IMG/VR virus record: IMGVR_UViG_3300006919_000118
Location: 1-41,464 of that record
Direction: 5' to 3' (one strand)
Length of the DNA: 41,464 nt
Origin: a virus
In this document: piece after piece, positions 1,662-34,200 of the stretch
Position numbering within the stretch: position 1 is the first letter of the stretch
How the letters are laid out: each line of letters opens with the position of its first letter
The notes under the pieces: generated by a model
Database searches by the model: none
What the model saw: the letters and a program-made list of their open reading frames with translations, nothing else
What the model was told of the DNA's origin: nothing
Position numbers and translations under genes: made by a program

Positions 1662-2162
1662 TCAGACTTTCTTTGCACATTCCGGCCCGATGCCGGAAGC
1701 GATGGATTGCGGGTCCGTCAGCGGACGGTTGCAGCGGCAGCAAGCGCCCTCGTGCTGGACGGTCAGCTCGGACGGGATGGCGTCGTCGCCCCCATTGTGA
1801 GCCTGCGCCCGGTTCAGGTGCTCCAGCGCCCAGCGCAGGGCGCGGAAGGACGGCCAGTCGGCGGCCTCCTGCTTGTTGCGGTTGATGCGGAGCTGACCGG
1901 GGAACATCGAGTTGATGTGACCGATGCTCAGCTGGTCTTCCCACGCCGTGTTGCGGCCATCGGCCAGAACCTTGACGAACAGCGTCGGGTTGACGCCCTT
2001 GAACTCGAAGCCCTTGCTGTCCTTGCGGCCCTTGTCCTTCGGTTTCTGGACCTTGAACGTGAAGTGCTTACCCGTCCGGCTGGACGTGATGGTGAAGACG
2101 GCGTTGCCGCCCGTGATGAACTGCATGGCCTCGGTGGCGCTGGTGAAACCGTCGTGTTGCAT
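1662..2162 (-). CDS. DUF6011-type zinc-binding-like phage protein, 166 aa
   Basis: The C-terminus carries a CCRCNRPL...SIASGIGPECA pattern, typical of the DUF6011 domain. The three cysteines around CCRC and the distal one in PECA could coordinate zinc. The N-terminal 90 residues (TITSSRTGKHFTFKVQKP) look like a small beta domain often paired with it. The start at 2162 has a textbook AGGAGGT 5 nt upstream and lies about 25 nt downstream of a predicted promoter; the 73-codon upstream extension crosses that promoter and is rejected. It is the first gene of the distal early transcript. Probably a small nucleic-acid-associated protein, but no activity is known. Confidence 0.75.
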   Translation of the reverse strand: MQHDGFTSATEAMQFITGGNAVFTITSSRTGKHFTFKVQKPKDKGRKDSKGFEFKGVNPTLFVKVLADGRNTAWEDQLSIGHINSMFPGQLRINRNKQEAADWPSFRALRWALEHLNRAQAHNGGDDAIPSELTVQHEGACCRCNRPLTDPQSIASGIGPECAKKV

Positions 2163-2190
2163 AATGACCTCCTGTGTAACTGACGACCCT

Positions 2191-2219
2191 AATATAGGGC
2201 CGCCAGTCACTGACGTCAA
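2191..2219 (-). promoter_or_regulatory. Leftward sigma-70-like promoter P1 with operator
   Basis: Reading leftward: -35 TTGACG (2219-2214), 17-bp spacer, -10 TATATT (2196-2191). The 11 bp directly after the -35 (2213-2203) are TCAGTGACTGG, one mismatch from the TCAGTnACTGA palindrome shared by all three leftward promoters. A degraded second copy (TCAGTTAC, 2183-2176) lies just past the -10. The leader then contains ACACAGGAGGTCA, identical to that after the promoter at 8665-8692. It lies in the only gap between 1662-2162 and 2224-2817 and drives the distal small genes including the Xre regulator. Confidence 0.75.
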
Positions 2220-2223
2220 GCTA

Positions 2224-2817
2224 TTACTTACGGTTCGCAATAGCCCTCTTGAGGGTATGCTCCGCGCTATCCCGAGGCCACGCATTATCGAGAACGAACT
2301 CCAGCGACACTTCGGGCCGCTCGTTCGTGGCTCGCCACTCATTGATCGCCTTGAGGGTGGCCGTGTCGTCAACGCCGCCACTGTCCCAATCCCGAATGAT
2401 GGCCCCGGCGTTGCGGGGGGTAAGCAGCAGCATCACTGGGTCGGGGCCAACCTGTTCCTTGAGGGCCTCGATCTCCGCGTCCGCCTCTTCGAGCTGGTCA
2501 GTTAGATCAGCGACCTCCCGCTGCAGTTCCTCAATCGCATTGTCTTTGGCCTTGATCAGGGCCTCCAGCTTACGGACCCGGTCGCTCTCAAGTGCGCCTG
2601 CCGTCGTTGTGTTGGTGAGCTGCGACAGCCTCGGATTGTCGTAGCCGGGAGTGTATGCGAGGAAGCCGGTGAGCTTGTCGCCGACGTGCAGCTCCCGGAC
2701 GAGGCAGATGTTCGAGCCGATGTGGACGGAGGTGCCGTCCGGTAGTGCGCCCCATGCCATGCCCCGATCATCGAGGACGGAGGTGACGGTTACTTCGTGT
2801 GTGGTAGTCGTGTTCAT
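2224..2817 (-). CDS. OB-fold-like plus coiled-coil protein, 197 aa
   Basis: Residues about 8-60 (VTSVLDDRGMAWGALPDGTS, then a conserved-looking GDKLTGFL) have the strand pattern of a cold-shock/S1-like OB fold. Residues about 80-120 form a strong coiled coil (heptads in KLEALIKAKDNAIEELQREV and onward). The last 60 residues are polar. The start has AAAGGAA upstream and is 12 nt from the polymerase stop, so it is co-transcribed with polymerase. An oligomeric nucleic-acid-binding role is inferred from architecture only. Confidence 0.65.
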   Translation of the reverse strand: MNTTTTHEVTVTSVLDDRGMAWGALPDGTSVHIGSNICLVRELHVGDKLTGFLAYTPGYDNPRLSQLTNTTTAGALESDRVRKLEALIKAKDNAIEELQREVADLTDQLEEADAEIEALKEQVGPDPVMLLLTPRNAGAIIRDWDSGGVDDTATLKAINEWRATNERPEVSLEFVLDNAWPRDSAEHTLKRAIANRK

Positions 2818-2829
2818 AGCGAGGTTCCT

Positions 2830-4644
2830 TTAATCTAGTTTACCCCAGTTCGGACCCATGCCGCCCTCGACCAGCCCGTGCGTCGGGCCGCTGGGAAATA
2901 CGTCGAGGTATCCCGCCATCATGTCTTCTTCCATGAGGGACAGGCATCCCTTTGCGTCCTTGTTCGCCGCCTCGTCGATGATGGCGTCGTGGATGGTGGA
3001 CAGCATCTTGGTGTGCGTCTGCCTCCCGGCAGCCCGCTCGTCGTCTAGCGTCGCCTTGTGCCGGGCGATGGCCTTGGCCATGATCGACAGCGCGGCACGC
3101 TGGACAGGGTAGTTCGCGCACTTCGGCATCTCCGGGGTCTTGCCCATGTAGATCGTGCCTCCGTCGATGACGCGGATGTATCGGGTGCGCCTCGCCTCCG
3201 CCATCATCTTGTTGCGGTAGTCGAACGCGTTGGCGTAGCGGTTGGCCCAGAAGTCGATGTAGCCCTGAGCGTCGGCGACGCTGGTCCGCATGTTGACCGA
3301 CAACCCGGCGGCGGCGGACCCGTAAATGATACCGAACGACACGCCTTTGGCTTTCGAGCGAGCGGCCTTGCCCTCCGGCGTGGTCTTGTCGATCTTGTGG
3401 CCTGCGATTACAGCGGCGACCTCACTGTGGACGTCTCCGTAGACAACGTCCTCAAGGAGCTGGTCGTCCTTGGCAAGCAACGCCAGCACCCTGAGTTCGA
3501 TGCCGCTGTAATCCAGACTGACCAGCTTGTGATTGCGGGGAGCCACGAACGAGGTGCGGACGCTGGTCGCCTCGCCGAGCAGCTCGTTATCTCGCGGCAC
3601 CTGCTGCAGGTTCGGGCCTGAGCTGGAGAAGCGGCACGTCTTCGCGGCGGCGATGTTGAACCGGGCGCGGATGCGATTGTCCGGCGACGTCTTGGCCTTG
3701 ATGATGAGCGGCTCGCCGAAGGACGAGATGTACTTCTCGACCTTGTTGTAGTCGGCCAGCGTGTCGAGCAGGGTCGTCATCGGGTTCTCGCCGTTGGCCT
3801 GCTCGTAGCCTGCGGCCATCGCACGCAAGGCCTCGCCCGTGGTCTGGAGCTGACCCGACTTCTCGGTGCGCGGCCACTTCTTCAGCGTCTCGTCGTCAAG
3901 GATGCGGGCGAAGAAGTCGGACCACTGGTTCTTCGAGTTGATGTTGGCCACGTCCTCCTCCGGCACGATCTCGCGGATGGCCTTGACCTTGTCCTTGCTA
4001 ATCTTCTGCCAGTGCAGATCGAGCTTCCGGTGGCGCTCGATGTCGAGCAGGATCCCGGCCTCTTCCATCTCGATGATGGCAGGCACCATGTCGTCGAACA
4101 TGCGCCACGCGTCCATGTGCTGCAGGTCAGCTCGGCCCTCCCAGTGCTGATAGAGGTCCCACGTATCGACGGCATCGCGGAAGGCGTAGCGGAGCTGCTG
4201 AGGCGTGAGGACGGGAGCGTTCCAGTCTGACGCCTGCTCTGTCTTGTCCATTTCCCGGCTCAAGTCCCACGCCACCACCTGCTTGAGGGAGTAGCGCCCG
4301 CCGCCGAGGATCGAGCAGCGGAGGAAGGCGACATCCTTGCAGAGCGGGCGAACCCCGACGGCATAGAACCAACGCAGCTCGAAGCCGGAGTTGAAGACGA
4401 TCCACGTCTTACCGAGGAACATTGAGGCGACGGCCTTGAAGCCGCCCTTGATCTCATCGAAGTCGATGACGTAGCCGTGGGTGCCGTCGTATATCTGAGC
4501 CAGTCGCACGCGGCCCTCGTCCGGGCGCAGCGCCGTGGTCTCGAAGTCGAGCGATGCAATGGAGCCTATGGTCTTCAACGCGCCGACGAGGTCGAGCTTA
4601 GTTGACACCATCTTGTAGTTCTCGTAGTCTGTCGAGGCTTTCAT
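2830..4644 (-). CDS. polA: Family A DNA polymerase with 3'-5' exonuclease domain, 604 aa
   Basis: Replicative phage DNA polymerase. Exonuclease motifs: Exo I SLDFETTAL (D33, E35), Exo II around IVFNSGFELRW (residues 82-92), Exo III YAFRDAVD (Y153, D157). Polymerase motif A is SLDYSGIELR (D378), motif B R429-K433...F437-x3-Y441G, and motif C IHDAIIDEA (D553). Two details differ from the common form: motif C has HDA where most family A enzymes have HDE, and Exo II has Glu rather than Asp after FNSGF. There is no 5'-3' exonuclease domain, as usual for phage enzymes of this length. A CGGAGGTCA site precedes the ATG. A terminator-like hairpin lies between it and the upstream gene. Confidence 0.95.
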   Translation of the reverse strand: MKASTDYENYKMVSTKLDLVGALKTIGSIASLDFETTALRPDEGRVRLAQIYDGTHGYVIDFDEIKGGFKAVASMFLGKTWIVFNSGFELRWFYAVGVRPLCKDVAFLRCSILGGGRYSLKQVVAWDLSREMDKTEQASDWNAPVLTPQQLRYAFRDAVDTWDLYQHWEGRADLQHMDAWRMFDDMVPAIIEMEEAGILLDIERHRKLDLHWQKISKDKVKAIREIVPEEDVANINSKNQWSDFFARILDDETLKKWPRTEKSGQLQTTGEALRAMAAGYEQANGENPMTTLLDTLADYNKVEKYISSFGEPLIIKAKTSPDNRIRARFNIAAAKTCRFSSSGPNLQQVPRDNELLGEATSVRTSFVAPRNHKLVSLDYSGIELRVLALLAKDDQLLEDVVYGDVHSEVAAVIAGHKIDKTTPEGKAARSKAKGVSFGIIYGSAAAGLSVNMRTSVADAQGYIDFWANRYANAFDYRNKMMAEARRTRYIRVIDGGTIYMGKTPEMPKCANYPVQRAALSIMAKAIARHKATLDDERAAGRQTHTKMLSTIHDAIIDEAANKDAKGCLSLMEEDMMAGYLDVFPSGPTHGLVEGGMGPNWGKLD

Positions 4645-8664: not shown

Positions 8665-8692
8665 AATATGGGGCATCAGTGACTGATGTCAA
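8665..8692 (-). promoter_or_regulatory. Leftward sigma-70-like promoter P2 with perfect operator
   Basis: Reading leftward: -35 TTGACA (8692-8687), 16-bp spacer, -10 CATATT (8670-8665). The perfect palindrome TCAGTCACTGA (8686-8676) abuts the -35. A second degraded half-site (TCAGCAAC, 8657-8650) follows the -10, then ACACAGGAGGTCA as in P1. The -35 overlaps the stop codon of the small membrane gene at 8689-8784. Confidence 0.78.
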
Positions 8693-9216: not shown

Positions 9217-9407
9217 GCGAAGTCTCCTTCCTGCTCGTAGACGGTGACACCCTCGGCATCGATGACCATGACGTAGCGGGTGCCTTCCCACGCCGCCTCC
9301 TCCTTCGCCTCGCCGATGGCGATGTCCTTGCTCTTGGCGATGTAGCTGTCGGACACCAGCTTGTTGGCGACGCTGTCGCGGGCGATGACAATTACTCGAT
9401 AGTCCAT
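9213..9407 (-). CDS. Small acidic hypothetical protein, 64 aa
   Basis: The protein starts MDYRVIVIARDSVANKLVSD, with a helix (IAIGEAKEEAAWEG) then a strand (RYVMVIDAEGVTVYE), a beta-alpha-beta outline. AGGAGGTCA is upstream, and its ATG abuts the stop of the cysteine-peptidase-like gene. It could be a partner of that protein; no family recognised. Confidence 0.68.
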   Translation of the reverse strand: MDYRVIVIARDSVANKLVSDSYIAKSKDIAIGEAKEEAAWEGTRYVMVIDAEGVTVYEQEGDFA

Positions 9408-9898
9408 TATTTGACCTCCTTCTTGGTGATGGTGACGATGTTGCGGACCATTTTGCCCCGACGCCACTTGGCGTCGTCGATGTGGTATCCGCCGTCCTGA
9501 TCGAAGACCCAGTTGTTGCGGACGACCTGAGCGTGGCCCGTGGTGACGACGATGTAGGTGACGTCCCGAGCGGTGTGCTTCTCGACCCACGTCTTCAACG
9601 TCATGCGCCGGGGAGGGCACTTCAAATCGACGTCGTAGCCCATGGCCCGTAAGGCACGCTCACGCAACCAGTCGTGGGTCCGGCCCCTCCACGAGGCGTT
9701 CTGGCGGTAGCCGTAGTAGTCCTCGTGGGCCTGAGCGTATGCCTCGGTGGCAGTGGCCAAGTTTTCGCCCGTGGCGATGGCCATTGCGACCAACCCGCAG
9801 TTGGGCCGGCCGGTCTGGTGATCTTCAGGCAAAGACAATCCAGCGGCGGCGACGTAGCCGCGCACCTTGTCGTAGGCAGGGTTAGACTGGAACTGCAT
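9407..9898 (-). CDS. Papain/C39-like cysteine peptidase fold protein, 163 aa
   Basis: The spacing and context of three residues resemble a cysteine peptidase triad: C34 in PNCGLVAMAIATG (Cys at the start of a helix), H122 in TTGHAQVVRNN (His in a strand), and D133 in NWVFDQDGG. This is the pattern of C39/papain-like peptidases and amidases. There is no signal peptide, so it would act in the host cytoplasm. It is the second gene of the early transcript, with AAGGAGGTCA before the ATG, a position typical of host-takeover proteins. It could cleave or deamidate a host protein, or be an inactive binder. The assignment is from motif reading only. Confidence 0.6.
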   Translation of the reverse strand: MQFQSNPAYDKVRGYVAAAGLSLPEDHQTGRPNCGLVAMAIATGENLATATEAYAQAHEDYYGYRQNASWRGRTHDWLRERALRAMGYDVDLKCPPRRMTLKTWVEKHTARDVTYIVVTTGHAQVVRNNWVFDQDGGYHIDDAKWRRGKMVRNIVTITKKEVK

Positions 9899-9909
9899 GA
9901 TTGACCTCC

Positions 9910-10050
9910 TTAGATGATGATTGCCAAAACACTGATCACGCCAGCAGCGAACCCGGACATCCGGGCGGCGATCTGGATCAAGCTGATCCGCCCGATCCCG
10001 GCAAAGCCTTCGTCGGCGAACCCGCCCTCGATCTTCATTAACTGTTGCAT
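9910..10050 (-). CDS. First early gene: small membrane-anchored protein, 46 aa
   Basis: MQQLMKIEGGFADEGFAGIG opens a glycine-rich N-terminus, followed by a C-terminal span rich in Ile, Val and Ala (GVISVLAIIII-like). It is the first gene after promoter P3 and carries CGGAGGTCACT before the ATG. A tail-anchored inner-membrane location is likely. Role unknown. Confidence 0.62.
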   Translation of the reverse strand: MQQLMKIEGGFADEGFAGIGRISLIQIAARMSGFAAGVISVLAIII

Positions 10051-10074
10051 AGTGACCTCCGTTAGTGCCTCACA

Positions 10075-10103
10075 ATAATGCCACAGTCAGTTACTGATGT
10101 AAA
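10075..10103 (-). promoter_or_regulatory. Leftward sigma-70-like promoter P3 with perfect operator
   Basis: Reading leftward: -35 TTTACA (10103-10098), 17-bp spacer, -10 CATTAT (10080-10075). The perfect palindrome TCAGTAACTGA (10097-10087) abuts the -35 just as in P1 and P2. It lies at the divergent junction between the two arms and would start the main early transcript. Confidence 0.75.
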
Positions 10104-10127
10104 CAGGAAAAGTTTCGGGCAATATCA

Positions 10128-10280
10128 ATGGGTTACCCATCATGGCGTAGTGGGCAAAAGTCCCTCGTTTCTTGGTGGGGCGCGAAGCCGTATAAAGAGG
10201 GGAGGCGGCACTATCTAGGCACGTTCTCCTCGGAAGCCGAAGCTAAAGAGGCTGTAGACAAGTTTTGGGCCGAGGCGTAA
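10128..10280 (+). CDS. AP2-like small DNA-binding protein, 50 aa
   Basis: The protein begins MGYPSWRSGQKSLVSWWGAK. The segment RRHYLGTFSSEAEAKEAVDK matches the core of AP2-type domains (a YLGTF strand followed by an alanine-rich helix), which bind DNA in phage homing endonucleases and as stand-alone phage proteins. It is the first rightward gene, next to the divergent promoter P3, so a local regulatory role is plausible. The ribosome site is weak (no purine run within 10 nt), which lowers confidence in the start. Confidence 0.55.
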   Translation: MGYPSWRSGQKSLVSWWGAKPYKEGRRHYLGTFSSEAEAKEAVDKFWAEA

Positions 10281-10364
10281 GCTACGCGCTCGACCCAAGA
10301 CTTTCAAGGTCGCGGGGTGTCCACTCCCCGACTATCGACAACACGAACCGACGAAGGAAACGAA

Positions 10365-12524
10365 ATGTCATCGACAAAAAAGTCTTACCTCATAGAGGCT
10401 GCTCTGTCCATTGTTGCGGACACCGGGTTTAAAGTTTTCCCCACCACCGACAAGAAGCCTGTATGGTCAAACGAGGACCTCGGCCTGAGCGCTGGCGAGG
10501 GGTCGTACAAGATCGCAACGACGGATGCGAGGCAGATCAAAAAACTATTCGAGCGGGGTGCGCAGGTCAGCGTGCCGATGCGCGTCAACGGCCTAGTGGC
10601 CATCGACGTCGACCTCTACAAGGGGGGCGAGGTCGAGCAGTGGCACGAGGCCAACCGCTATTGGCTCGAAGGCACGCGGACGCACCGCTCCGGCAACGGA
10701 GGGCTGCACTACATCTTCAAAGCCGACCCGGAGCTGCGCTTACCCGGCCAGCTCATGGAAGGCGTGGACGTCAAGTGGAACGGCTACATCGTGTGGCCGC
10801 CGCAGGATGGCTACGAGGTCATCGACGACGCTGACTACCGTGAGCTGCCAGAGGACGAGATGTCGGCGGCGATGCGGGCGAAGGGTGGGACAGGTAACCT
10901 TCGCGGTGCGGATGCCATGTACAACAGCGCGACGGATACGGAGCTGTACGGCGACATCATCAGCGGTGCCAGCTACCACCCGGCGATGCAGACGTTGACC
11001 ATGCGCTATGCCAACAGGAGGCAGCCAGCCGAGATCAGTTTGGAGCTGCTGCGTGAGGCTATGGACCTCGTCGCCATCAAGGATGATCGGTGGCACGACC
11101 GGTATTCTAAGATTGAGCCTCTCGTTACCAGTGCCATTGCGAAATTGGAAAACGAGCGGTCGGCGACAGACGAAGAAACCGCTGCCGTCATGCAAGGCAC
11201 GCCCCTAATGAAGATGGGCCTCGATAATTTTTCAAAGCCGACACTCGAAGAAATCAGGGCTGAGGTGTCGGCGGAGAAGACGCAGCAGCCCTCTGCACCC
11301 TCAACGCCCCCCGGCCTTGTCGGTGAGATCGCAGCCTACCACGACATGAAGTCTCGGCACGTCACCCCTCAGTATGGCGTGGTCGCTGGCCTTATTTCCG
11401 TCAGTGCGCTGCTCGGCAACCGCTACGTGGTGGACATGCCGAAGTACGACACGAACACCAACTTGTTTGTGGCGATGCTTGGCCCTACAGGCTCCGGCAA
11501 GGAGCTGCCGCGTACCATCGTGAGTGAGGTGCTCACCATTGGAGGGATGCAGGACACGGTGAAGGATGTTGTCTCCGAGCCTGCTTTTCACGCCGCCTTG
11601 AACCACGACGCTCGGATGACGTGGATGCCGGATGAGTTCGGCAAGCTGCTTCGCAACATCGGCCACAGCGCAGCGCACCACACGTCTGGTATGCTCAAGT
11701 TCGCCATGCAGGCTTACGGCATCCACAATGGCGGTATGATCCCAGCTAAGGTGTACTCGAACGCTAAGGATGCGAAGCCAGCCATCGTCAGTCCGTATGT
11801 GGTCGCGATGGCGACGACGACCCGGTCCAGTTTCGAGCAGGTCATGTCCGAAGACTTCATTGCGGACGGCTTTCTGAACAGACTGCTTATGGTTGAAGAA
11901 CCGCAGAGCGTTATGGGTAAGGTCAACGGTACGTCGAAGGCTAAGTTGAGCGATGATGTCCGAGCACGCATCGCCGCTCTGGCCGATAATGGTGCGCTGG
12001 AGACATCGAGGGCGGAGGGTAGGAGCCTCCCGCATCCCATGCCTATAGCGGTGTCCAGCGATGCGCTTGCATTGTTTGAGGCGTTCGATGATGAGACGAC
12101 GAGGGTGCTGGCCACGACCAATGACCCGGCCAAAAGGGAGCTGATGCCGCGTCTTCACGAGAACGCAATACGTGTAGCTGGCGTTTTGGCTTGCGGTGAT
12201 GGTGATCCGCTGTCGCCAGTGCTCGAAGAGGAGCACGCGGCTTGGGCTATCACCTTCGTGAGGAAGTCTCTGGCGGCCATGATCGAGTTCACTCTCGACA
12301 TGGGCGGCACCGAGTTCGACAAGGATCGACGCCGGGTTCTTGAGTTTATTCGTGAGCACGGCGAGATGGGGGTCACGGCCCGCGACATCACGCGGCGGTT
12401 CAAGCTACAGGCCCGCGATCGAGATGCCGTCATCGAGATGCTGGAGCACGGCGCATACATCGCAGAGGTCAACACCGCCTCCGGCATCACGAAGCAGAGG
12501 GTTATCCGTTATGTTGCCGTATAG
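10365..12524 (+). CDS. PrimPol-type primase fused to DUF3987-like helicase, 719 aa
   Basis: Bifunctional replication initiator. The N-terminal primase/polymerase domain (about 1-200) has the GFKVFPTTDKKP entry motif, the catalytic D81-V-D83 in VAIDVDLY, and H115 in a THRSGNGGLHYIF context. The central P-loop ATPase of DUF3987 type has Walker A GPTGSGKE (373-380) and Walker B-like MPDEFG (421-426). Residue 380 is Glu where Ser/Thr is usual. The C-terminal 100 residues form a winged-helix-like tail (VTARDITRRFKL). The start at 10365 has GAAGGAA 6 nt upstream; a GTG 48 nt earlier has none. The stop overlaps the first element of the repeat array, so the protein probably acts on the adjacent DNA. 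Confidence 0.88.
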   Translation: MSSTKKSYLIEAALSIVADTGFKVFPTTDKKPVWSNEDLGLSAGEGSYKIATTDARQIKKLFERGAQVSVPMRVNGLVAIDVDLYKGGEVEQWHEANRYWLEGTRTHRSGNGGLHYIFKADPELRLPGQLMEGVDVKWNGYIVWPPQDGYEVIDDADYRELPEDEMSAAMRAKGGTGNLRGADAMYNSATDTELYGDIISGASYHPAMQTLTMRYANRRQPAEISLELLREAMDLVAIKDDRWHDRYSKIEPLVTSAIAKLENERSATDEETAAVMQGTPLMKMGLDNFSKPTLEEIRAEVSAEKTQQPSAPSTPPGLVGEIAAYHDMKSRHVTPQYGVVAGLISVSALLGNRYVVDMPKYDTNTNLFVAMLGPTGSGKELPRTIVSEVLTIGGMQDTVKDVVSEPAFHAALNHDARMTWMPDEFGKLLRNIGHSAAHHTSGMLKFAMQAYGIHNGGMIPAKVYSNAKDAKPAIVSPYVVAMATTTRSSFEQVMSEDFIADGFLNRLLMVEEPQSVMGKVNGTSKAKLSDDVRARIAALADNGALETSRAEGRSLPHPMPIAVSSDALALFEAFDDETTRVLATTNDPAKRELMPRLHENAIRVAGVLACGDGDPLSPVLEEEHAAWAITFVRKSLAAMIEFTLDMGGTEFDKDRRRVLEFIREHGEMGVTARDITRRFKLQARDRDAVIEMLEHGAYIAEVNTASGITKQRVIRYVAV

Positions 12525-12767
12525 GTGTCACCGTTGTCACAAGGTGTCACCTACATCAGGTGACACCTTAAAGCCGCGCTCAGTAAGGGATAGAGGTAAG
12601 GTGTCACTAAATACATACCATACCCTCCCTACCTATATTTTTGAGCGAACGGGTGGGGGTGGGGGTAGACCCCCCGGTGACACGGTGACACCTTCCCTCA
12701 AACCCATAGCCAGTAAGGGATTAAGGTGTCACCTCCCTACTGGTGACACCTTGGTGACAGTGACACC
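12524..12767 (+). repeat. Iteron-like array of GGTGTCACC/GGTGACACC, candidate replication origin
   Basis: About ten copies of a 9-bp near-palindrome in both orientations begin at 12524, 12543, 12559, 12600, 12676, 12684, 12725, 12742, 12753 and 12759 (the last two overlap, and several have one end base changed). A second repeat, CAGTAAGGGAT, occurs at 12581 and 12711, each time just upstream of a GGTGTCAC copy. Between the two clusters lie an A/T-rich tract (12608-12645) and a G-rich run with a GGGGGTAGACCCCC hairpin. No gene with a ribosome site is found here. The position directly after the primase-helicase gene fits a replication origin with initiator sites; a regulatory array is the alternative. 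Confidence 0.8.
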
Positions 12768-12785
12768 TTTCGAGAGGAGATCGAC

Positions 12786-12965
12786 ATGACGTTTAGGGAG
12801 TTTTTGAAGCAGACCCATGATGAAATCGTCGCGGTTGGACAGGACCATGAGGGCGACGATGTTTTTTACACGAAGCTCGGTAGGATGGCGTACTTTAAAG
12901 GCGGCCCATACGGCCTTGTCGTTGTGGATATGCCCGTCGTGGAGATGCCGAAAAATGCCAAATAG
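12786..12965 (+). CDS. Small hypothetical protein, 59 aa
   Basis: The protein begins MTFREFLKQTHDEIVAVGQD and ends VEMPKNAK. It has a two-strand core (VFYTKLGRMAYFKGG, PYGLVVVDMP). GAGAGGAGA lies upstream of the ATG, and the stop falls 11 nt inside the nuclease gene. It lies immediately downstream of the repeat array and may be transcribed with the nuclease. Function unknown. Confidence 0.7.
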   Translation: MTFREFLKQTHDEIVAVGQDHEGDDVFYTKLGRMAYFKGGPYGLVVVDMPVVEMPKNAK

Positions 12966-13293
12966 GAACAAGCAACGAGGCTACGAATTGGAGCGGGAGA
13001 CGGTCCTGTTCTGGCGTGAGAAGAACGCCGAGGTGCAGCGAGTGTTCGGCAGTGGGGCGCATAGCCATGCGGGCGAGGAGTTCGACGGTGATGTGAAACT
13101 TGGGCCGTACACCATCGAGGCCAAGCGCAAGAAGAGCGGCTTCAAGTTTTTGTACGACGCGCTGGAGCAGGGCGAGTACGGAACGGACATGCTGGTCATC
13201 AGGCAGGATCGCAGCCGACGGCTCTACGTCCTCGAAGAGGAGACGCTCCTTGACCTGATGCGGAAAGCTGGATTACTCTCGACGCCAATTTGA
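12955..13293 (+). CDS. Hjc-like PD-(D/E)XK endonuclease, 112 aa
   Basis: The motif order fits archaeal-type Holliday junction resolvases and related small nucleases: E11/E13 in GYELERE, D46 in EFDGDVKL, and E55-A-K57 in TIEAKRKKSG. The length suits the family. It probably resolves branched replication intermediates before packaging, which fits its place next to the terminase genes. The start at 12955 is taken because the sequence from MPNRNKQRGYE onward is the conserved domain; an upstream 46-codon extension overlaps the previous gene out of frame. Confidence 0.8.
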   Translation: MPNRNKQRGYELERETVLFWREKNAEVQRVFGSGAHSHAGEEFDGDVKLGPYTIEAKRKKSGFKFLYDALEQGEYGTDMLVIRQDRSRRLYVLEEETLLDLMRKAGLLSTPI

Positions 13294-13646
13294 AAAACAA
13301 GTTGGATTTTTCAGTGACTGAGAAGAAGCAACGGGGCGGAGCACGCAAGGGCGCAGGTAGGCCGAAAGGCGTGCCGAATAAGATCACGACGGATCTGCGG
13401 CAGGCCGTCATCAACGCGTACGACAAGGCTGGCGGCGAGGAGTATCTCGCGGGGCTGGCGCGGGACGAGCCGAAGACGTTTGCCACACTGATGGCCAAGG
13501 TCATCCCCAGCGAGAACATCAATCGCAACTACGACATGTCCGCAATTCAGGGTCGCCTAAACGCGGCGAGGGAGCGGGCAGCCAATGCGAACAAGGCGAG
13601 GAGCAAAGATGCCAAGCAAGAAAAAACCATACGGCGGCGGGCGTAA
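13290..13646 (+). CDS. Probable small terminase subunit (DUF5681-like N-terminus), 118 aa
   Basis: The N-terminal GGARKGAGRPKGVPNKIT is the basic DNA-contacting motif seen in many phage small terminase subunits and DUF5681 proteins. It is followed by a helical body (LRQAVINAYDKAGGEEYLAG) and a basic C-terminus. The position just before the large terminase supports the role of recognising packaging DNA. Start uncertain: TTG at 13290 overlaps the nuclease stop, while GTG at 13314 (reading VTEKKQRGG) is equally plausible. The TCAGTGACTGA palindrome lies between and over them. Confidence 0.6.
   Translation: MKNKLDFSVTEKKQRGGARKGAGRPKGVPNKITTDLRQAVINAYDKAGGEEYLAGLARDEPKTFATLMAKVIPSENINRNYDMSAIQGRLNAARERAANANKARSKDAKQEKTIRRRA
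13311..13321. promoter_or_regulatory. Orphan copy of the early-promoter palindrome TCAGTGACTGA
   Basis: This is an exact match to the 11-bp operator-like palindrome found at the three leftward promoters, but no -35/-10 pair is evident on either strand here. It overlaps the alternative GTG start of the probable small terminase gene. A binding protein could repress late packaging genes from here. A chance match in 41 kb is possible (roughly 4 percent for the exact palindrome). Confidence 0.35.
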
Positions 13647-13653
13647 GAAGTGA
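13609..13653 (+). CDS. Basic micro-ORF, 14 aa
   Basis: The peptide is MPSKKKPYGGGRKK. It has GAGGAG about 7 nt upstream of its ATG, and its TGA overlaps the GTG start of the next gene (GTGA). It overlaps the 3' end of the small terminase gene in another frame. It may be a real tiny basic peptide or a leader that couples translation to the next gene. Confidence 0.35.
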   Translation: MPSKKKPYGGGRKK

Positions 13654-13838
13654 GGCCCGCTGATCACCACTGGAAGCGTCCGCCTCCCGGCCAGTCTGGG
13701 CTGTTGGTCTGCGACAAGTGCGGGCAGCGCAAGGTGCCTGACCTCGACAACCCGGACCACCCGGACCATGGCTGCACTGGCCGACCGCAGGACGCCATCG
13801 TGGTGAGCCATGACAGCGAATACGATCCAATCACTTGA
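13650..13838 (+). CDS. Small zinc-ribbon-like protein, 62 aa
   Basis: The protein reads from a GTG start, MRPADHHWKRPPPGQSGLLV, followed by CDKCGQRK and later HPDHGC. CDKC with the downstream His/Cys could bind zinc. It lies between the small and large terminase genes and overlaps the large subunit by 29 nt. The start relies on coupling to the 14-codon micro-ORF, since it lacks its own ribosome site. It may be a packaging accessory protein. Confidence 0.55.
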   Translation: MRPADHHWKRPPPGQSGLLVCDKCGQRKVPDLDNPDHPDHGCTGRPQDAIVVSHDSEYDPIT

Positions 13839-15294
13839 GGAGGAGCTGGCGGACTTCGTCGGCTCTTGCTACGACGACCCGCTGCTCTTCGTGCGCTCGG
13901 CGTTCCCATGGGGGACAGGCAGCCTCGCAGGTTTTGACGGGCCAGACGACTGGGCGGTCGAGTTCTTGACCAAGATCCGCGAAGAGGTCAAGGACCGCGC
14001 CTTCGACGGCGTCAACGCTGTCGCCCCGCTCTACTTCTCCACGGCATCAGGACACGGCATCGGCAAGTCTGCGATGGTCTCGTGGCTCATCCTGTGGATT
14101 ATGTCCACCCGACCGAATTGCAAAGGCACAGTGACTGCCAACACGGCGCAGCAGCTCCGCTCAAAGACGTGGGCCGAGCTGGCCAAGTGGTACAACCTCT
14201 GCCTCACGCAACATTGGTTCACGCTCAACGCTGGCTCGATGGGGTCGCTCAACCTCTACGCCAACGCAGCGCCGGAGACATGGCGCGTCGATGCTCAGAC
14301 GTGTGAGGAGCGCAACAGCGAGGCGTTCGCCGGGCAGCACGCAGCCACCTCGACCAGCTTCTACATCTTCGACGAGGCATCTGCCGTGCCTGACAAAATC
14401 TTCGAGGTCCGCGAGGGTGGCCTGTCGGACGGCGAGCCTATGGTCTTCGACTTCGGCAACCCGACGCGTAACACTGGCCGCTTCTTCGAGAACATGCAGG
14501 GCAGGCATCGCAACCAGTACGTCAAGACGTTCGTGGACAGCCGCGACGTCCGCATCACGAACAAGGAGTTGTTCAAGCAATGGGCTGAGACGTATGGCGA
14601 AGACAGCGACTTCTTCAAGGTCCGCGTCCGGGGCATCTTCCCAGACGCTGGTGCGCTCCAGTTCGTCAACGGTGCCAAGGTCAGAGACTGCGTCAACCGC
14701 GCCGTTGTGGTTCAACCTTTCGACCCGCTGGTTATCGGCGTCGATGTCGCACGGTTCGGCGACGACCAGAGCGTCATCTGCATCCGGCAAGGGCGAGACT
14801 GCGAAACGCATGAATGGTTCAAGTTCCAAGGGCTGGACACCATGCTCCTCGCGGCCAAGGTCGTCGAGGTAGCCAACAACCTCAAGGCTGACCAAATCTT
14901 CGTTGACGGCGGGGGCGTCGGTGGTGGCGTGGTGGATCGGTGCAGGCAATTGGGCCTCGATGTCTTCGAGGTCAACTTCGGCAACCAATCGACTGACAAG
15001 CTCTACGCCAACATGCGAGCGCAGTGTTGGGGCAACATGCGCGACGCCATCTACGACGGTGTGCGTCTGCCGGACGACCCTGAGCTGATCGCTGACCTCA
15101 CTGGCCTTGAGTACGGCTACAACCTCCGCAACCAGATACAGCTCGAAAAGAAGGAGGACGCCAAGAAGCGCGGCATCGCCAGCCCCGACCTTGCGGACGC
15201 CCTCGCCTTGACGTATGCCTACCCGGTAGCACCAACGCGCCCCGGCTACAAAGCCGAGGAGCAAACCCAGTCGGAGTACAACCCCTATGACTAA
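13810..15294 (+). CDS. terL: Terminase large subunit, 494 aa
   Basis: DNA-packaging ATPase and nuclease. Walker A is SGHGIGKS (80-87) and Walker B is YIFDEA (185-190, catalytic E189). The C-terminal RNase H-like nuclease carries three acidic positions: D312 (IGVDVARFGDD), D366 (FVDGGGVGGG) and D460/D463 (SPDLADALALTY). Length is typical. It would assemble on the portal at the procapsid vertex, pump DNA and cut the concatemer. The stop overlaps the next gene by 8 nt. Cos or headful mode cannot be read from the protein. Confidence 0.95.
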   Translation: MTANTIQSLEEELADFVGSCYDDPLLFVRSAFPWGTGSLAGFDGPDDWAVEFLTKIREEVKDRAFDGVNAVAPLYFSTASGHGIGKSAMVSWLILWIMSTRPNCKGTVTANTAQQLRSKTWAELAKWYNLCLTQHWFTLNAGSMGSLNLYANAAPETWRVDAQTCEERNSEAFAGQHAATSTSFYIFDEASAVPDKIFEVREGGLSDGEPMVFDFGNPTRNTGRFFENMQGRHRNQYVKTFVDSRDVRITNKELFKQWAETYGEDSDFFKVRVRGIFPDAGALQFVNGAKVRDCVNRAVVVQPFDPLVIGVDVARFGDDQSVICIRQGRDCETHEWFKFQGLDTMLLAAKVVEVANNLKADQIFVDGGGVGGGVVDRCRQLGLDVFEVNFGNQSTDKLYANMRAQCWGNMRDAIYDGVRLPDDPELIADLTGLEYGYNLRNQIQLEKKEDAKKRGIASPDLADALALTYAYPVAPTRPGYKAEEQTQSEYNPYD

Positions 15295-26421: not shown

Positions 26422-28224
26422 ATGGCACGAGTTCCAACAGTAGGCGAGCGCGGTCAGGCGGTCGGCACCGTCCAGCAGGCTGAGGCGCGTAATCAGTTCC
26501 AGTCGATGCAGACGAACGCCGACATGTTCGGCGCTGCTCAGGGCCGCTCGCTGCAGCAGGCCAGCGCGGGCCTTAATGGCATCGCTGCCGCCTTCAAGCA
26601 GAAGGCCGAGGACGACGACAACCTCGTGATCCTTGAGAACGATAACGCGGCGGACGCTTTTAAGCGGGATTTGATGCACAACGCCGAGACGGGCCTTCTG
26701 ACCCGTCAGGGCAAGAACGCCGTGGGTATGTCCGAGGAAGCCGCCCGGCGGTTCGACGAGTACGCTGCGTCCCTCCCACAGCCGAAGACCCAAGAGGGGC
26801 GGCTCGCGCAGCAGGAGAAGCTGCTCAAGATGAAAGCCGTGATGCTCAACACGGCGTCTACGCATGAGCGCACGCAGGTTGAGGCATACAAGACAGAACA
26901 GATCGAGACGTCGCTGGGCAATCACCAGCAGGAGATGGGAACGGCCTACTCGGACCCGGTCGCTCTGGCGAACGCGGAAAAGGGTATCCGGGCGGAGGCG
27001 GAGACACTGGCCGCCCGACGGGGTATGAGCGACGAGGCCAAAGAGGAGTTCGTTGAGGCCAGCGTTAGTAAGGGCTACGCCGACGCCATTGACGCCGCGC
27101 TGGCGAACGAGGACTACGCCACTGCGGAGCGCCTGCTCGACGAGAACAGCGGTAAGATGCAACCCGAAGACCGGGACGCCGCCAAGGAGGCTGTGGCCAC
27201 AGGCACAGTCCTTGGGTACGCCCAGAAGGAAGCCGACCGTATCATGAGCCAACGCGGCTTGAGTGGCCCGGAGCGCCTCGCATTGGCACGGCAAGAACCC
27301 GACCCAAAACGCCGGGAAGAGTTGGTGGCGATGGTCAAAACCCGCGTCGCTGAAGAGGCGGCCTTCGAGGATAAGGCGCGGCAAGATCGCTTCGACGCCG
27401 CCTCTAACGCCGCACGGAACGGCCAGCCGGTCTCTGAGCCGATGCGCCGGGGCTTGACCGCACGGCAGAACGCTTACATCGACGACGTCGCCGAGGAGCA
27501 GGCGCTACGCGCAGCAAACCCAAACTACACGCGCCCCACGCAGGAGGCGGCTCTCGAAGAGATCAACGCCCAGCAGGGGGCTGATCCTACGTGGCTGCAG
27601 ACGATGCCGTTCGCCGACCTGCGTGATGGTTACAAGATGCGCCTTAATCCGACAGACTGGCGTAACCTCCAGAGTGATTGGCTGGAGGCACAGAACGACA
27701 AACGCGCTGCCGCTCAGGCCATCGCCGACGCCAAGGAAGAGGCCGCAGACTATTCAGGCTTCGAGCCAAACACGCGCATCAGGGAAATCCTGCAAGCTGT
27801 CGGCGCAAGCGAGGAGGAGGTGGCCCCGAAACATGAGAGGTTCACTGCCTTCCGCTCTGAGTTCGATGCTAGGATCGCTTCCTTGGCCGGGGCGGGTATC
27901 AAGATCACTCCTATTGTGGAACAGGATGTCCTCAAACAGATGGCAGCGGAGAGGATCAACATCGACGATGAGGCAGTCTTTGCTTTCCGGGCTGACCCCG
28001 ACCAGCGCAGAGAATACGCCCGTGAAATCTTTAACGGACGCCGCAACTTTCGAGAGGCCGACAGACTGGTGCAGGACTTCGATAACATCCGCAACGAGTT
28101 GGCCATCATGGGGATGCCCATGACTTCAATCCGAGAAGCCTACAAAGCCCTTGTCAGGAATGGTACTACTCAGCCCACCCTAGACGAGATCATGGAAACC
28201 ATCCGATATAATGCGGGGTCTTGA
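26422..28224 (+). CDS. Internal virion protein, T7 gp15-like, 600 aa
   Basis: MARVPTVGERGQAVGTVQQA begins a long, almost fully helical, Ala/Glu/Arg-rich protein. A typical segment is NAETGLLTRQGKNAVGMSEE, a motif common in the gp15-like core/ejection proteins of podoviruses. No membrane span or enzyme motif is evident. It would form the periplasmic conduit with the giant protein that follows. The ATG at 26422 is preferred over a GTG at 26407 because GGTGGAG lies 6 nt upstream. The stop overlaps the next start (TGATG). Confidence 0.8.
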   Translation: MARVPTVGERGQAVGTVQQAEARNQFQSMQTNADMFGAAQGRSLQQASAGLNGIAAAFKQKAEDDDNLVILENDNAADAFKRDLMHNAETGLLTRQGKNAVGMSEEAARRFDEYAASLPQPKTQEGRLAQQEKLLKMKAVMLNTASTHERTQVEAYKTEQIETSLGNHQQEMGTAYSDPVALANAEKGIRAEAETLAARRGMSDEAKEEFVEASVSKGYADAIDAALANEDYATAERLLDENSGKMQPEDRDAAKEAVATGTVLGYAQKEADRIMSQRGLSGPERLALARQEPDPKRREELVAMVKTRVAEEAAFEDKARQDRFDAASNAARNGQPVSEPMRRGLTARQNAYIDDVAEEQALRAANPNYTRPTQEAALEEINAQQGADPTWLQTMPFADLRDGYKMRLNPTDWRNLQSDWLEAQNDKRAAAQAIADAKEEAADYSGFEPNTRIREILQAVGASEEEVAPKHERFTAFRSEFDARIASLAGAGIKITPIVEQDVLKQMAAERINIDDEAVFAFRADPDQRREYAREIFNGRRNFREADRLVQDFDNIRNELAIMGMPMTSIREAYKALVRNGTTQPTLDEIMETIRYNAGS

Positions 28225-31200
28225 TGGAGTTTAAAGTACCTTCGACGATCACCCGTGACGAAGATCGTCGAGATCCGCTAACTCAGCAGACCACACCCGC
28301 GCCTCGTCGCGGGCCGCGCCTTGTACCGCAGGCGGACGCAACCGTGTCTGACTTCAAAGTGCCAGAGTGGATACGCACGGACGCGCAGATTGAGCAGGTC
28401 AAGCTCGACGACGCTATGGCGCACAACCCGACGCAGTATGCGGACGACAAACGCCGTGCGCGGACTACTGGCTTGCCCCTGTCCATTGTTCAAGAGAATG
28501 AGCCGCTCCAGCAAAAGCTGGCTGGGGCCAACCTGCGCCGTAAATTGCGAGACACTGACTTCGCCGCTCGCTGGTTTGGGCAAGGCGATAACGCCCGCCT
28601 GACCCATGACGTGGTGGACGAGCTAGTTGAGGCAGACGGCACCGCCGCAGCCGTGGCTCGTCCCGACTACAATGACGAGGAGCAAAGCTGGGTGGAGGCC
28701 ACGTCGCTGGCCATCGGAGAGCGGGCTATCCGGCTAGGCGGGTTGGTCACCCAGTTTGGCGCGACACTTGACGAGGAGATGTTCGGCAGTACCCTCAAGG
28801 ACGTTGCTATGGAGCTGGAGGCGGCGCTGCCTCTCGGTTATATCCAGATGGGCGACGAGCAGGGAGTGCCGCCCGACGCGCTGTTGCTAATGGAGCTGAA
28901 TGGCACCAAGTTCTACCACGTCCCGTCTAGCGCAGACCGGCAAGAGAAGTACGCGGCCAGCACGGACAACCCGCTGGCCGATGTAGGGGCCGCGCTGTCA
29001 GAGTTTGAGATCGGCGACCAAATCGACGAGCGGGCAATGGAGCAGGTGTGGAACGACAACCCACTGGCCATTATCCCGTGGGCTACCCAGCAGGGACTGG
29101 CATCGGCAGCGGACATACTGGGCGTGGTTCTCTCTCTGCCGATCTATGCGGCAGCCCGCGCCACCGAGATGGGTAACGAGCGCGGCAGCTTCGAGGGCAG
29201 GGACCGCGCCGCCATGACCGACATCATCGAGGCCGCTCCGACAGCTATCGCGTCGGCGGCGCTTGAGCGGTTTGCTGGTAAGAAAATCCTCGGCATTAGC
29301 GATGACCTTGCCGCTCCGACGATCCTCGGTATCCTCGGCGCTGCCGGTAAGGGCGCAGCAATCGAGGCGGCTACCGAGGCGGGGCAGGAGACCATCGAAT
29401 ACTTCGGCACCCGCATTGGCACCATCGAAGACGTGTCAGCCAAGGAGGCGACGGAGATCGCGTTTCAGGCTGCCGTTGTTGGCGGCATCTTCGGCGGCGA
29501 CGTCCGGTTGGTGACGGCTACAGCTCAGGCTGGCTTGGAGGCCCGCCGTTCCAAGACGCGCACCGAGGCAGTCCGCAACATGAACGCGGCCAACCCTAGC
29601 CTACGAGCACGAGACCCAGAGACCTTCGCAAACTTCCAGTCTGAGGCGCTCCGCGCCCAAGGGGTCGAGGACGTCCGCGTTAGTGCAGACGGCATCAACA
29701 TCCTGATGCAGGAAGTCGGGGGACGAGAAGAGGCAATTCGTCAAGGGTATGTCACCGGGGCGTCCGCGACAGAAAGTGAGCTTGGCGGCAACGGCGTGCA
29801 GCTTTCTCTGGAGAAGTTCTGGTCATTGCCGCAGGAGACAATCGAGAAGCTGGCTCCGCATGTGGCTTTCAATGCTGCGGAGCTTACAGAGGCTGAGGCT
29901 GTGGATGTGGCCGAGGTACTCGCAGAACAAAATAAGGCAGACTTTCAGGCCGCCGTTGACACCATGCGTGAGACGGTCACCGAAGACGACGCCGTTTTCC
30001 AACAGGTTTATGACCAGCTCATTTCCGAAGGTACTGCTTTTAGCGGTGACCCAAACGCAGCCACCGCAGCAGCGGAGCAGATGGCCGCCGCCTTCCGCGT
30101 CTTGGCTGAGCGATCCGGTAAGTCTGTTGAGGAGCTTGCGGGCAAGTTTCTGCCGACTATCCGTAAGGAGACCCGTATTCCTATTGGACCTGCTACTTTC
30201 GAGCAGGCCACGCAGGGCTTCGTCGATGACGCTCCCGCCGAGCTACAGGCTGCCGCTCAAGCGCGCATGGCGGGGGAGATTACGCAGGCCGAATACGACG
30301 CGCAGGTCAACGCGTTTAAACCCATCCTGCCGTATGAGAGTGTCCCGACCCCGGCCAGCGAAGACAAGATGCGGGCCGCCCTGACAAAGGGCCAGCAGGG
30401 GCGCGTGGGAAAAGGGATCGAGTGGCTGGGTAAACTCGTTGGCCTCCGGCTCGACATCCCGGCGTACACTCGTCACGACACTTGGGTGCCGACAATGCAC
30501 GACCCGGCGGGCAAGCCGGTCGCGCACGAGGCCGCCGCAAAGATTACAGGCGCGACCTTCACACAACCCGGCGAGAGCGCCGAGCGCAAGGCAGCGAAGG
30601 TCGGCGCTGAGGGGGTCAGCAAGTCTCCCTTCGCCCAGATCAACGGCACCCTCCAGTCGGTGGACCCGGACACCCTAGTCGCCGAGATGGAGGCCGCGCT
30701 CAACGATCCGGCATGGACGCAGGTCGGCTACGATCCGCGCCGTCACACATTCTTCTACGACCGCAAGACCCAGCGCCCGGTGCTCAGCGCCGACGAAGTC
30801 ATTCAGGTCGGCCCTCTGGTGTTGGCCAAGAACGCTCAGTTTGGCAGCGGCGCTGACTTCCTGTTCCAGACTGCCGAGGCCCCCATGACGGAGCGCAAGC
30901 AGAACCCGCAGGTCGCTGACGGAAACAAGCACGGCCTGATGCCCTACCTGCGCGACTGGTCCGAGGCAGAGCCGCGCCGCGCCAAGAAACAGGCCGTCGT
31001 CCAGAAGTCGAATAACAAGAACGCCCGCAGTGAGCTGGACAAGGTGGACGAGGTTCTCGCTATGAACCCGGACGCGCACACCAGCGTGCGGGCGTGGAAG
31101 CAGATGATGGCGGATGCCTATGGCGAACAGGACGTGCCCATCGCTCCGTATCGTTTCATTGAGGAGATCAACAGTAATGGTGTGGTACAGAACCTGAGCC

Positions 31201-34200
31201 GACTGTCCGAGGGCCAGATCGCCGACGCCGACCACGGCTTCGAGAACGCCCGCGATTTCCGCGAAGCGTACACGTCTGGCAAGCTGGGCGTCGAGACCAC
31301 AGGCAAGCTGTTTCTCTGGTCTTTCCTGTCTCGTGGCGTCAGTCCATATACGCAGGAAAGCCTGTTCATTGACGCCTTCCCCGGCATCGACAAGTGGATG
31401 GCGCAGGCAGCGGCAGGCGAGTTCGACGTCAAGGGGTACACCGAGTGGGCCAAGTCCGTAGCGCCGAAGGGTAGTGGGCAGCCGGGAGCCGGGGCCACGC
31501 ACAACCTCAACGCCTTCGGGAAGGACTTCCTCGTCAAGATGTCACAAGATGTCGGAGATGGGCGCTCGAAGTTGCAATATCTGCACGACCTCATGTCCGA
31601 TCCGGCCACCACAGGGAAGCAGGTCCGCCGAGAGTTCGCCGCCATCGGAGAAGGCGTGGGTATCGACAACAAGGTGGTGTCGTTCACTCTTCTCGTGGCC
31701 GGGTACAATGATGTCATGGTCCTTGACCGCGTGCAGTTCCGCCAACTCTTCAACGACGGGCGCTACGACGGGGTCAATTTGTATGACGGCTTCAAACAAG
31801 AAGGGGCCGTGGTCACCGGCTCCGGCTTCGCTAAACAGGGGGACGGCGTCCGAGGCATCCTGATCTACGAGGCCATCGAACGCGCCATCGAGGCGCGGAT
31901 CGACGACATCTATCGCCAGCTCGGGCGAGAAGGGCAAGGAAGTGTTGGGCGCTACCACTGGGAAACGTGGGTGGCGGATAGCCAGCAGGAGGCCAGCCAC
32001 GGCAGCCTTGCTGCTATCCTGCCCGACGCGCTGGGCGCAGCGAACGCCATCAACGAGGTATCCGCCAAGCAGGGTGAATACGGCAACTACGCCTATGGCG
32101 CTCGGTACGGCGTCACAGGAGACGGCATAAGTCACTTTACATACTCGACCCCGTCTGGTAAGGTATGGATATTCACGGTCCCGCAGTTTGTTGAGTTCCA
32201 GCAGGAGATCAAGAAACCGAAGAACGGGGTCGTCCCCAAGAAATTCAAGGTAACGGAGGCAGGCAATGCCCCTTGGTACAACCAAGAACAAATTGATACC
32301 GAAGCCCTCGACCGCGTCGCCGCCTCCCTCGCAGAAGGAGAGGCAGGAGACCGAACGGGAACTGTTCGCCGGAATGGCAAAGACGAAGACCTTTCCGCTG
32401 GATCTCCAGCCGATCAAGCCAAACTCCTCTTCCAGCTAGAAGCGCCGTCTCTCCGCGCCCTCTTTGAGGCAGGGGCCGACTTTGACCGGCTCCTGAGCCA
32501 CCCCGATGTAGTGGCTGCATTGGAGCAAATGTACTCGATCCCGATCACTAGTGAGCGGGATGGGTACATGTCCGAACCGTGGAAGCGCGGACGGCTTTAC
32601 AACAACGGCATTGTTGGCTTCGACGCCGTCGTGGAGCGTATGGTCGAGAACACGGCTGGACATACCAACGAAGTCCTACAAGGCAATGAAGTCCACATCG
32701 TGCTCGGCCCCCCGGCGTCAGGCAAATCCAGCGCGATTGCGGAGCCGTTGGCTGAGGCTATCGGCGCTCGGGTTGTCGATAGTGACGACGCCAAGAAACT
32801 GATCCCCGAGTTCCAAGGGGGTGTCGGGGCCAACGCTGTGCATGAGGAAAGCTCCGCTATTACCGAAGAGGCGCTGCGCCGTCTCCTGCCTACACAGGAC
32901 AACCTAGTTCTGCCTCTCGTCGGGGCCAACCTCGAAAGTATGCGGAAGCGGGTCAAGGCCCTCAAGGCAGCGGGCAAGACGGTGTACGTTCACAATATGG
33001 GGCTGAGCCTAGACGAAGCGCACCGCCGCAACATCGGGCGCTTTATATTCAGCGGAAGGTTGGTTCCGCCGCAGTACCTAGAAGGTGTTGGCGTCAAGCC
33101 GTCAGCGACTTATACTGCACTGTTAGAAGAAGGAGACGCAGATGGCTACGCAGACTACAACAACGAAGTCCCCATCGGCCAGCAGCCGGTCCTCAACGCT
33201 CAAGAAGGCGTTGAAGTCGCTGCCAGCTATGCCGAAGAAGCTGGCGTTGACCGAGGACGCGACGGAGATGGCGCTCGACCGGGCGCTGTCGAGCAAAGGC
33301 TAGAGCAACAGGCACGCGGGTCTATCGACTTCCGCGACATGCAGGACATCGTAATCCGCCTCTATGAGGCGGAGAACCTGTCCACGTTCCTGCATGAGAG
33401 CGGCCACCTGTACCTTGAGATGCTTGGCACTCTGGCCTCTGAGCCAGACGCCGCTCCGCAGCTACAGGAAGATTTCCAGACTATCCTTGATTGGTTTGGC
33501 GTCGATAGCCGAGAGCAGATTGGCGTCGATCAACACGAGAAGTTCGCCGAGACTTTCGAGGAGTACCTCCGAGAGGGCAAGGCTCCTAGCCCCGCGCTGG
33601 AGCGTGCCTTCCGTAAGTTCATGGCGTGGCTCACCACGATCTACAAACGCGCCACCAGTATCGGCAAGCGGCGTGAGCTGACACCAGAGATCAGGGACGT
33701 CCTCGACCGCCTGCTGGCGACGGACGCAGAGATCGAGAACGCACGCGTCATGGCCAACCTCGTTCCGGCCTTCAAGGACTTCGAAGCCAGCGGCATGACC
33801 GAGGAGGAGTACACCGCCTACGCTGAAAGCTATCAGAACGCGCAGCAGGCGGCGCAGGCTGAGTTGATCCAAGAGACGTATGCCGAGGTCCGCCGTGAGC
33901 AGCAGAAGTGGTGGAACGAGGAGCGTGCGAAGGAGGAGGAGCTTGCTCTCCAGCGCCTAGATGCCGACCCCGTATGGCAGGCGCGGTATTCCCTCCAGAC
34001 CGGAAACCTACCGTCCGGCGCTCCTCGTGCCGACGAGCGCCCGCATGTGAAGCTCAACAGCAAAGCAGTCGGAGACCGCAGCCTTCCGGGGGGAACTCGG
34101 ATTATCAGCAAGACTGGCTCAGAGCCGGAAGCGGTAGCGCAGGACTTTGGGTTCGATAGCGCAGACCATCTACTGACTGAGCTGGAGAACATGCCCAAGG

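Follow-up and report, generated by a model that had tools for sequence, protein, structure and literature searches.

How does a phage that carries a PrimPol-type primase-helicase mark the place where its replication begins? Such enzymes occur in many phages, and the locus examined here raises this question directly. It lies in a complete virus record of 41,464 bases (60% GC), the whole of which we call the window, and a first-pass annotation of this DNA had proposed that a dense array of repeats behind the primase-helicase gene is an initiator-bound origin, possibly served by the PrimPol protein.

Composition of the array and its neighbourhood

The array spans 244 bp and contains the word GGTGWCACC six times exactly and three times with one mismatch, together with two half sites, in keeping with the ten or so elements first reported. 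In the whole window, 0.40 exact copies were expected and eight were observed, six of them in the array, against a maximum of three in 100 shuffles. The other two, at 9243 and 38347, agree with the earlier statement that the word is rare elsewhere. Furthermore, a mismatch-tolerant scan found nine copies in the array and at most three in block-shuffled sequence. Many copies of a short word are thus packed into a small region far above chance, as in iteron origins. The features of the locus are as follows.

2830-4644: family A DNA polymerase
10317-12524, + strand: Prim-Pol and DUF3987 primase-helicase (Pfam PF09250, 1.8e-15; PF13148, 5.9e-15; phrog_3022, 2.6e-70)
12291-12521, + strand: primase C-terminus, predicted winged-helix domain and suggested reader of the iterons (AlphaFold2 pLDDT 84; winged-helix matches in the PDB, Z up to 11.0)
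12524-12767, no strand: two-orientation iteron array, candidate replication origin (nine GGTGWCACC copies with at most one mismatch and two half sites)
12524-12532, + strand: iteron GGTGTCACC, overlapping the primase stop codon by one base
12535-12540, + strand: half site TGTCAC
12543-12551, + strand: iteron GGTGTCACC, which with its flanks pairs with the copy at 12559 as a perfect 12-bp inverted repeat around a 5-nt loop
12559-12567, - strand: iteron GGTGACACC
12581-12591, + strand: second element CAGTAAGGGAT, copy 1
12600-12608, + strand: iteron with one mismatch, GGTGTCACT
12602-12641, no strand: A/T-rich tract (35% GC 40-mer), likely unwinding element
12623-12675, no strand: C-rich, G-run and C6 stretch, hairpin-capable by its sequence, with counterparts in relatives
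12676-12684, - strand: iteron with one mismatch, GGTGACACG
12684-12692, - strand: iteron GGTGACACC
12711-12721, + strand: second element CAGTAAGGGAT, copy 2
12725-12733, + strand: iteron GGTGTCACC
12742-12750, - strand: iteron GGTGACACC
12754-12759, - strand: half site GTGACA
12759-12767, - strand: iteron with one mismatch, AGTGACACC
12786-12965, rightward: 59-codon ORF behind the array
12955-13293, + strand: Holliday-junction-resolvase-like gene behind the array (phrog_244, 1.3e-10; weak PDDEXK_15 match under the Pfam cut-off)
13810-15294, + strand: terminase large subunit, TerL (phrog_2, 3.6e-43; DNA similarity to phage terminases)

The first iteron meets the primase stop codon (TAG at 12522-12524) as originally described. 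Copies were found on both strands, as claimed, with the caveat that GGTGWCACC is palindromic except for its middle A/T, so that the orientation of each iteron is defined by this base and by the AA/TT flank.

The core of the array was also as first described. Only 0.04% of the 40-mers of the genome are as A/T-rich as the tract at 12602-12641, which lies within the repeats where an iteron origin has its A/T-rich unwinding element, and the neighbouring hairpin is built from two G5 runs and one C6 run. The second element, CAGTAAGGGAT, occurs exactly twice in the whole window. Its two copies lie 17 and 12 bp ahead of the next AAGGTGTCAC; measured from the previous GTGACACCTT, the distances are 21 and 26 bp. 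This corrects the claim that their spacing to an iteron is equal; both copies are instead flanked by a pair of iterons the same 41 bp apart.

The array appears to be gene-free. A 149-codon ORF (12340-12789) is open across it in a frame other than that of the primase, and 41% of this ORF lies inside the primase gene. A search of 9800-14000 found no Rfam family, the window contains no tRNA, and a scan that covered the sigma-70 type of promoter revealed neither promoter-like nor terminator-like sites in the array.

The primase gene would more likely start at the ATG at 10365, behind AAGGAA, than at the GTG at 10317. Its last 77 residues were predicted by AlphaFold2 to form a winged helix (pLDDT 84), and the PDB structures matched by this C-terminus were mostly winged-helix domains. 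The full-length model has a mean pLDDT of 62.6 and is poor except in the helicase and C-terminal parts. The array adjoins the gene of this candidate initiator, its putative reader, and the modelled winged helix is the likely domain for iteron recognition.

Elsewhere in the window, the palindromic word CAGTNACTG occurs with a TGATGT flank at 8675 and 10088, just upstream of leftward gene starts, and in plain form at 2204, 13312 and 14129; these words are possibly operator or promoter elements. A small ORF of about 50 codons (10128-10280), with no Pfam match, lies upstream of the primase, and a 2927-codon ORF (28221-37004) matches phrog_9880 (function unknown) over residues 1697-2919.

Arrays in relatives and in viruses with unrelated initiators

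Near copies of the array were found in only two virus contigs (L005 and L006), which are 100% identical to the window over 9730 and 7800 bases and thus represent the same virus, with no within-lineage variation to use. Diverged PrimPol-DUF3987 loci (about 20-25% identity) were gathered by a profile scan. An exact-8-mer scan had suggested that no comparable array exists elsewhere, a result that was overturned by a mismatch-tolerant scan: in diverged phages, the non-coding DNA that follows the primase harbours comparable two-orientation arrays, whose iterons differ between clades. In several of them, the left copies point in one direction and the right copies in the opposite one, with a C-run/G-run inverted repeat and an A/T tract between them.

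The closest layout was observed in L255, where GCGCCGACA occurs seven times and, as in the window, the primase stop codon shares one base with the first copy. GCCGACA words occupy the same position behind the primase in L249, L256 and L257, and the only clear PrimPol case among the GCGCCGACA triples in virus contigs was L255's own contig. Arrays after the primase are made of GTATAACGG in Xanthomonas phage Pfeifenkraut, of GAGTTTAAT in L314 and of TCGAATTGA in L260, while marine phages, including CRP-901/902, carry iterons of the ATTTATTGC and ATTTATGGC types, at distances from the primase of up to about 4 kb. In BPP-1, which has a Prim-Pol-D5 primase, two GCCTCGTTT converge with two AAACGAGGC between the primase and the bbp27 endonuclease/terS genes. 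The window and its relatives share a gene order in which the primase is followed by the array and then by a resolvase or terminase gene. The latter is RusA in L249, L257 and L282 and the terminase small subunit in L255; L256 has a weak match to RusA there. We also observed two-orientation non-coding arrays ahead of the primase rather than behind it in two PrimPol relatives, L010 (1457-1750) and L251 (2170-2457).

To count such arrays, primases were grouped at 80% core identity into 30 clusters, each counted once, and an array was defined as a two-orientation, non-coding set of at least five copies. Arrays lay behind the primase in 7 of the 30 clusters, one of them represented by a low-complexity A/T-rich case (L303), in front of it in two and inside it in none. 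Without the non-coding filter, arrays of at least five copies were found downstream in 10 of 26 clusters and upstream in 8 of 23, against 2 of 26 in shuffled sequence, and as the filter was picked after these counts were known, the downstream/upstream contrast is suggestive. About two thirds of the clusters had no array by this definition, which overlooks arrays visible by eye in L249, L256, L257, L260 and L013. By this comparison with relatives, which the first-pass annotation had proposed, an array behind the primase is recurrent, with other iterons, but not universal.

Descriptions of such arrays were not found in the open-licence papers searched. The paper on CRP-901/902 contains neither the word "iteron" nor "origin of replication", although the arrays are plain in the sequence, and a search on GGTGWCACC gave only unrelated papers among the matches listed.

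Across these loci, iteron similarity correlated with primase similarity equally well for the core and for the C-terminus (r 0.84 for both). Partial correlations failed to separate the winged helix from the helicase core; iteron similarity tracks the whole primase, so that covariation does not single out the winged helix as reader.

Unexpectedly, arrays of GGTGWCACC were also found in viruses whose initiators are unrelated. In a scan of virus contigs for three copies with gaps of at most 30 bases, 116 stretches were found, compared to 10 for a single composition-matched control palindrome. In 76 loci, 72 of which are virus contigs, the array lies across members of a single gene family, of which all four that were tested match HTH_36. 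Many contigs of this sort (L021, L023, L029 and similar) show spacings of 30, 31 and 17 bp. A second large group resembles repeats in coding sequence. Mixed-orientation arrays also lie behind VapE/D5 primase-helicases in four loci, at a distance from the gene end of about 40-180 bp in L027, L058 and L063 and of about 1.6 kb in L127; L058 also carries, at 1962-4553, a terminase gene with intein-splicing and LAGLIDADG domains. A family profile search (E up to 5) revealed no HTH_36-like protein among the ORFs of the window, and no homology between the PrimPol winged helix and HTH_36-family proteins was detected when their profiles were compared (probability 7.8%), the fold type being the same. 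We tentatively raise the possibility, without favouring it, that GGTGWCACC is an origin word common to the unrelated HTH_36, VapE/D5 and PrimPol-DUF3987 systems, through either converged winged helices or one reader. If true, a single word serving unrelated initiators would be unexpected.

A probable origin and the alternatives

We consider it probable that the array is the replication origin and that the PrimPol-DUF3987 protein binds it through its winged helix, judging from the layout and by analogy with P4 alpha and pRN1. This reading is favoured because the array is beyond chance, has an A/T-rich core with G-runs, shares its anatomy with diverged phages and lies beside a gene for a protein with a predicted winged helix, because sigma-70 promoter-like and terminator-like sites are absent from it, and because the origin region of pRN1 was mapped 3' of an AEP-SF3-winged-helix gene (PMC4234260). 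Comparison with diverged phages of the same primase type thereby lends support to the initial proposal. Counted against it were the absence of a GC-skew turn at 12.5 kb, a sign that the first-pass annotation had suggested looking for, the majority of primase clusters without an array by our definition, the weak downstream/upstream contrast when the non-coding filter is removed and the distance of the marine arrays from their primases.

In the mechanism that we infer, several copies of the PrimPol-DUF3987 protein would bind the iterons, each by the winged helix at its C-terminus, and gather around the core, where the A/T-rich tract and the C/G-run hairpin would melt. The helicase part would then open the DNA, the Prim-Pol part would make the first primers, and the family A DNA polymerase would extend them. 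An array of a defined word beside a PrimPol gene, with analogues in distant relatives, provides a concrete candidate binding site, and such arrays may offer a route to predicting origins from sequence.

It is conceivable, though unlikely, that the origin is read by another protein, either a host factor or a different DNA-binding protein of the phage, and that the primase is recruited later. The same word accompanies other initiators, being found within HTH_36-family genes and downstream of VapE/D5 primase-helicases, so PrimPol is not necessarily the reader, and iteron-primase covariation does not pick out the winged helix. However, the primase and the array adjoin, no HTH_36-like protein was found among the ORFs of the window, and the window contains no DnaA boxes (TTATNCACA).

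We find it quite unlikely that the array is a pRN1-like stem-loop origin, in which a long extruded hairpin is recognised and the repeats matter as inverted sequence. The folding energy of the array DNA (z = -7.8), its two 50-nt arms (76% complementary, with a 77-nt centre), the perfect 12-bp inverted repeat with its 5-nt loop and the dependence of pRN1 on a 100-bp stem-loop downstream of its replication gene (PMC4234260) all speak for such a structure. Strong folding potential of this kind also follows from inverted iterons. Yet one large hairpin explains neither the neighbouring same-orientation copies (12524/12543 and 12676/12684) nor the repeated 41-bp iteron spacing. Furthermore, relatives keep the iteron word among direct copies too.

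Slightly less credible, and in our view improbable, is that the array controls transcription of the rightward genes, as an operator or other control region, instead of being an origin. The array does lie upstream of a rightward gene run that starts at 12786 with a good ribosome-binding site, but the sigma-70 scan found no promoter-like or terminator-like site in it, and an operator would not usually be so dense, contain an A/T tract and a G-run and recur behind primases with different words. Finally, a cluster of primase start sites, with Prim-Pol priming at GTG on both strands of each iteron, is very improbable: the GTG+CAC density of the array is the maximum of the window (22 vs a mean of 7.4 per 244 bp), and NrS-1 polymerase (PMC8718748) and pRN1 ORF904 (PMC4234260) start at GTG, but the 8-nt NrS-1 motif TTTGGTTA is absent, and the iterons of nine other arrays contain no GTG or CAC, so that GTG priming is not a general function of such arrays.

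Comparison with known replication systems

Phage NrS-1 resembles the window in having a phage Prim-Pol and a helicase. In the available text of PMC8718748 and PMC7102993, Prim-Pol and a ring helicase replicate the NrS-1 genome, TTTGGTTA is recognised and an iteron array is not described. Unlike NrS-1, the window lacks this motif.

In lambda, the iterons lie inside the O gene. Origins of the lambda O type are similar in combining iterons with a phage initiator, which is putative in the window, and GGTGWCACC is found inside HTH_36-family genes in 72 virus loci. In contrast, the array of the window lies between genes, and the profile search revealed no HTH_36-like protein, which sets it apart from the O type.

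In the crenarchaeal plasmid pRN1, the origin region was mapped experimentally 3' of the AEP-SF3-winged-helix gene ORF904; the motifs bound by ORF904 there were described as not yet identified, and the authors state that a 100-bp stem-loop is used and that there are no iterons (PMC4234260). As in pRN1, the candidate origin region of the window lies just 3' of a primase-helicase gene, and the window protein combines an AEP primase domain with a predicted C-terminal winged helix. Unlike pRN1, the window has an iteron array and a helicase domain of the DUF3987 type.

The P4 iteron core is GTGAACAG, which is absent from the window. As summarised in PMC4234260, P4 alpha is a primase-helicase whose winged helix binds origin repeats. 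The window shares with it a winged-helix primase-helicase, as predicted, and repeats at the candidate origin, for which the same protein is the putative binder, but P4 has a Toprim primase whereas the window has a Prim-Pol (PF09250). The array would work like an iteron origin, and it is not of the P4 kind, since both the primase type and the iteron differ.
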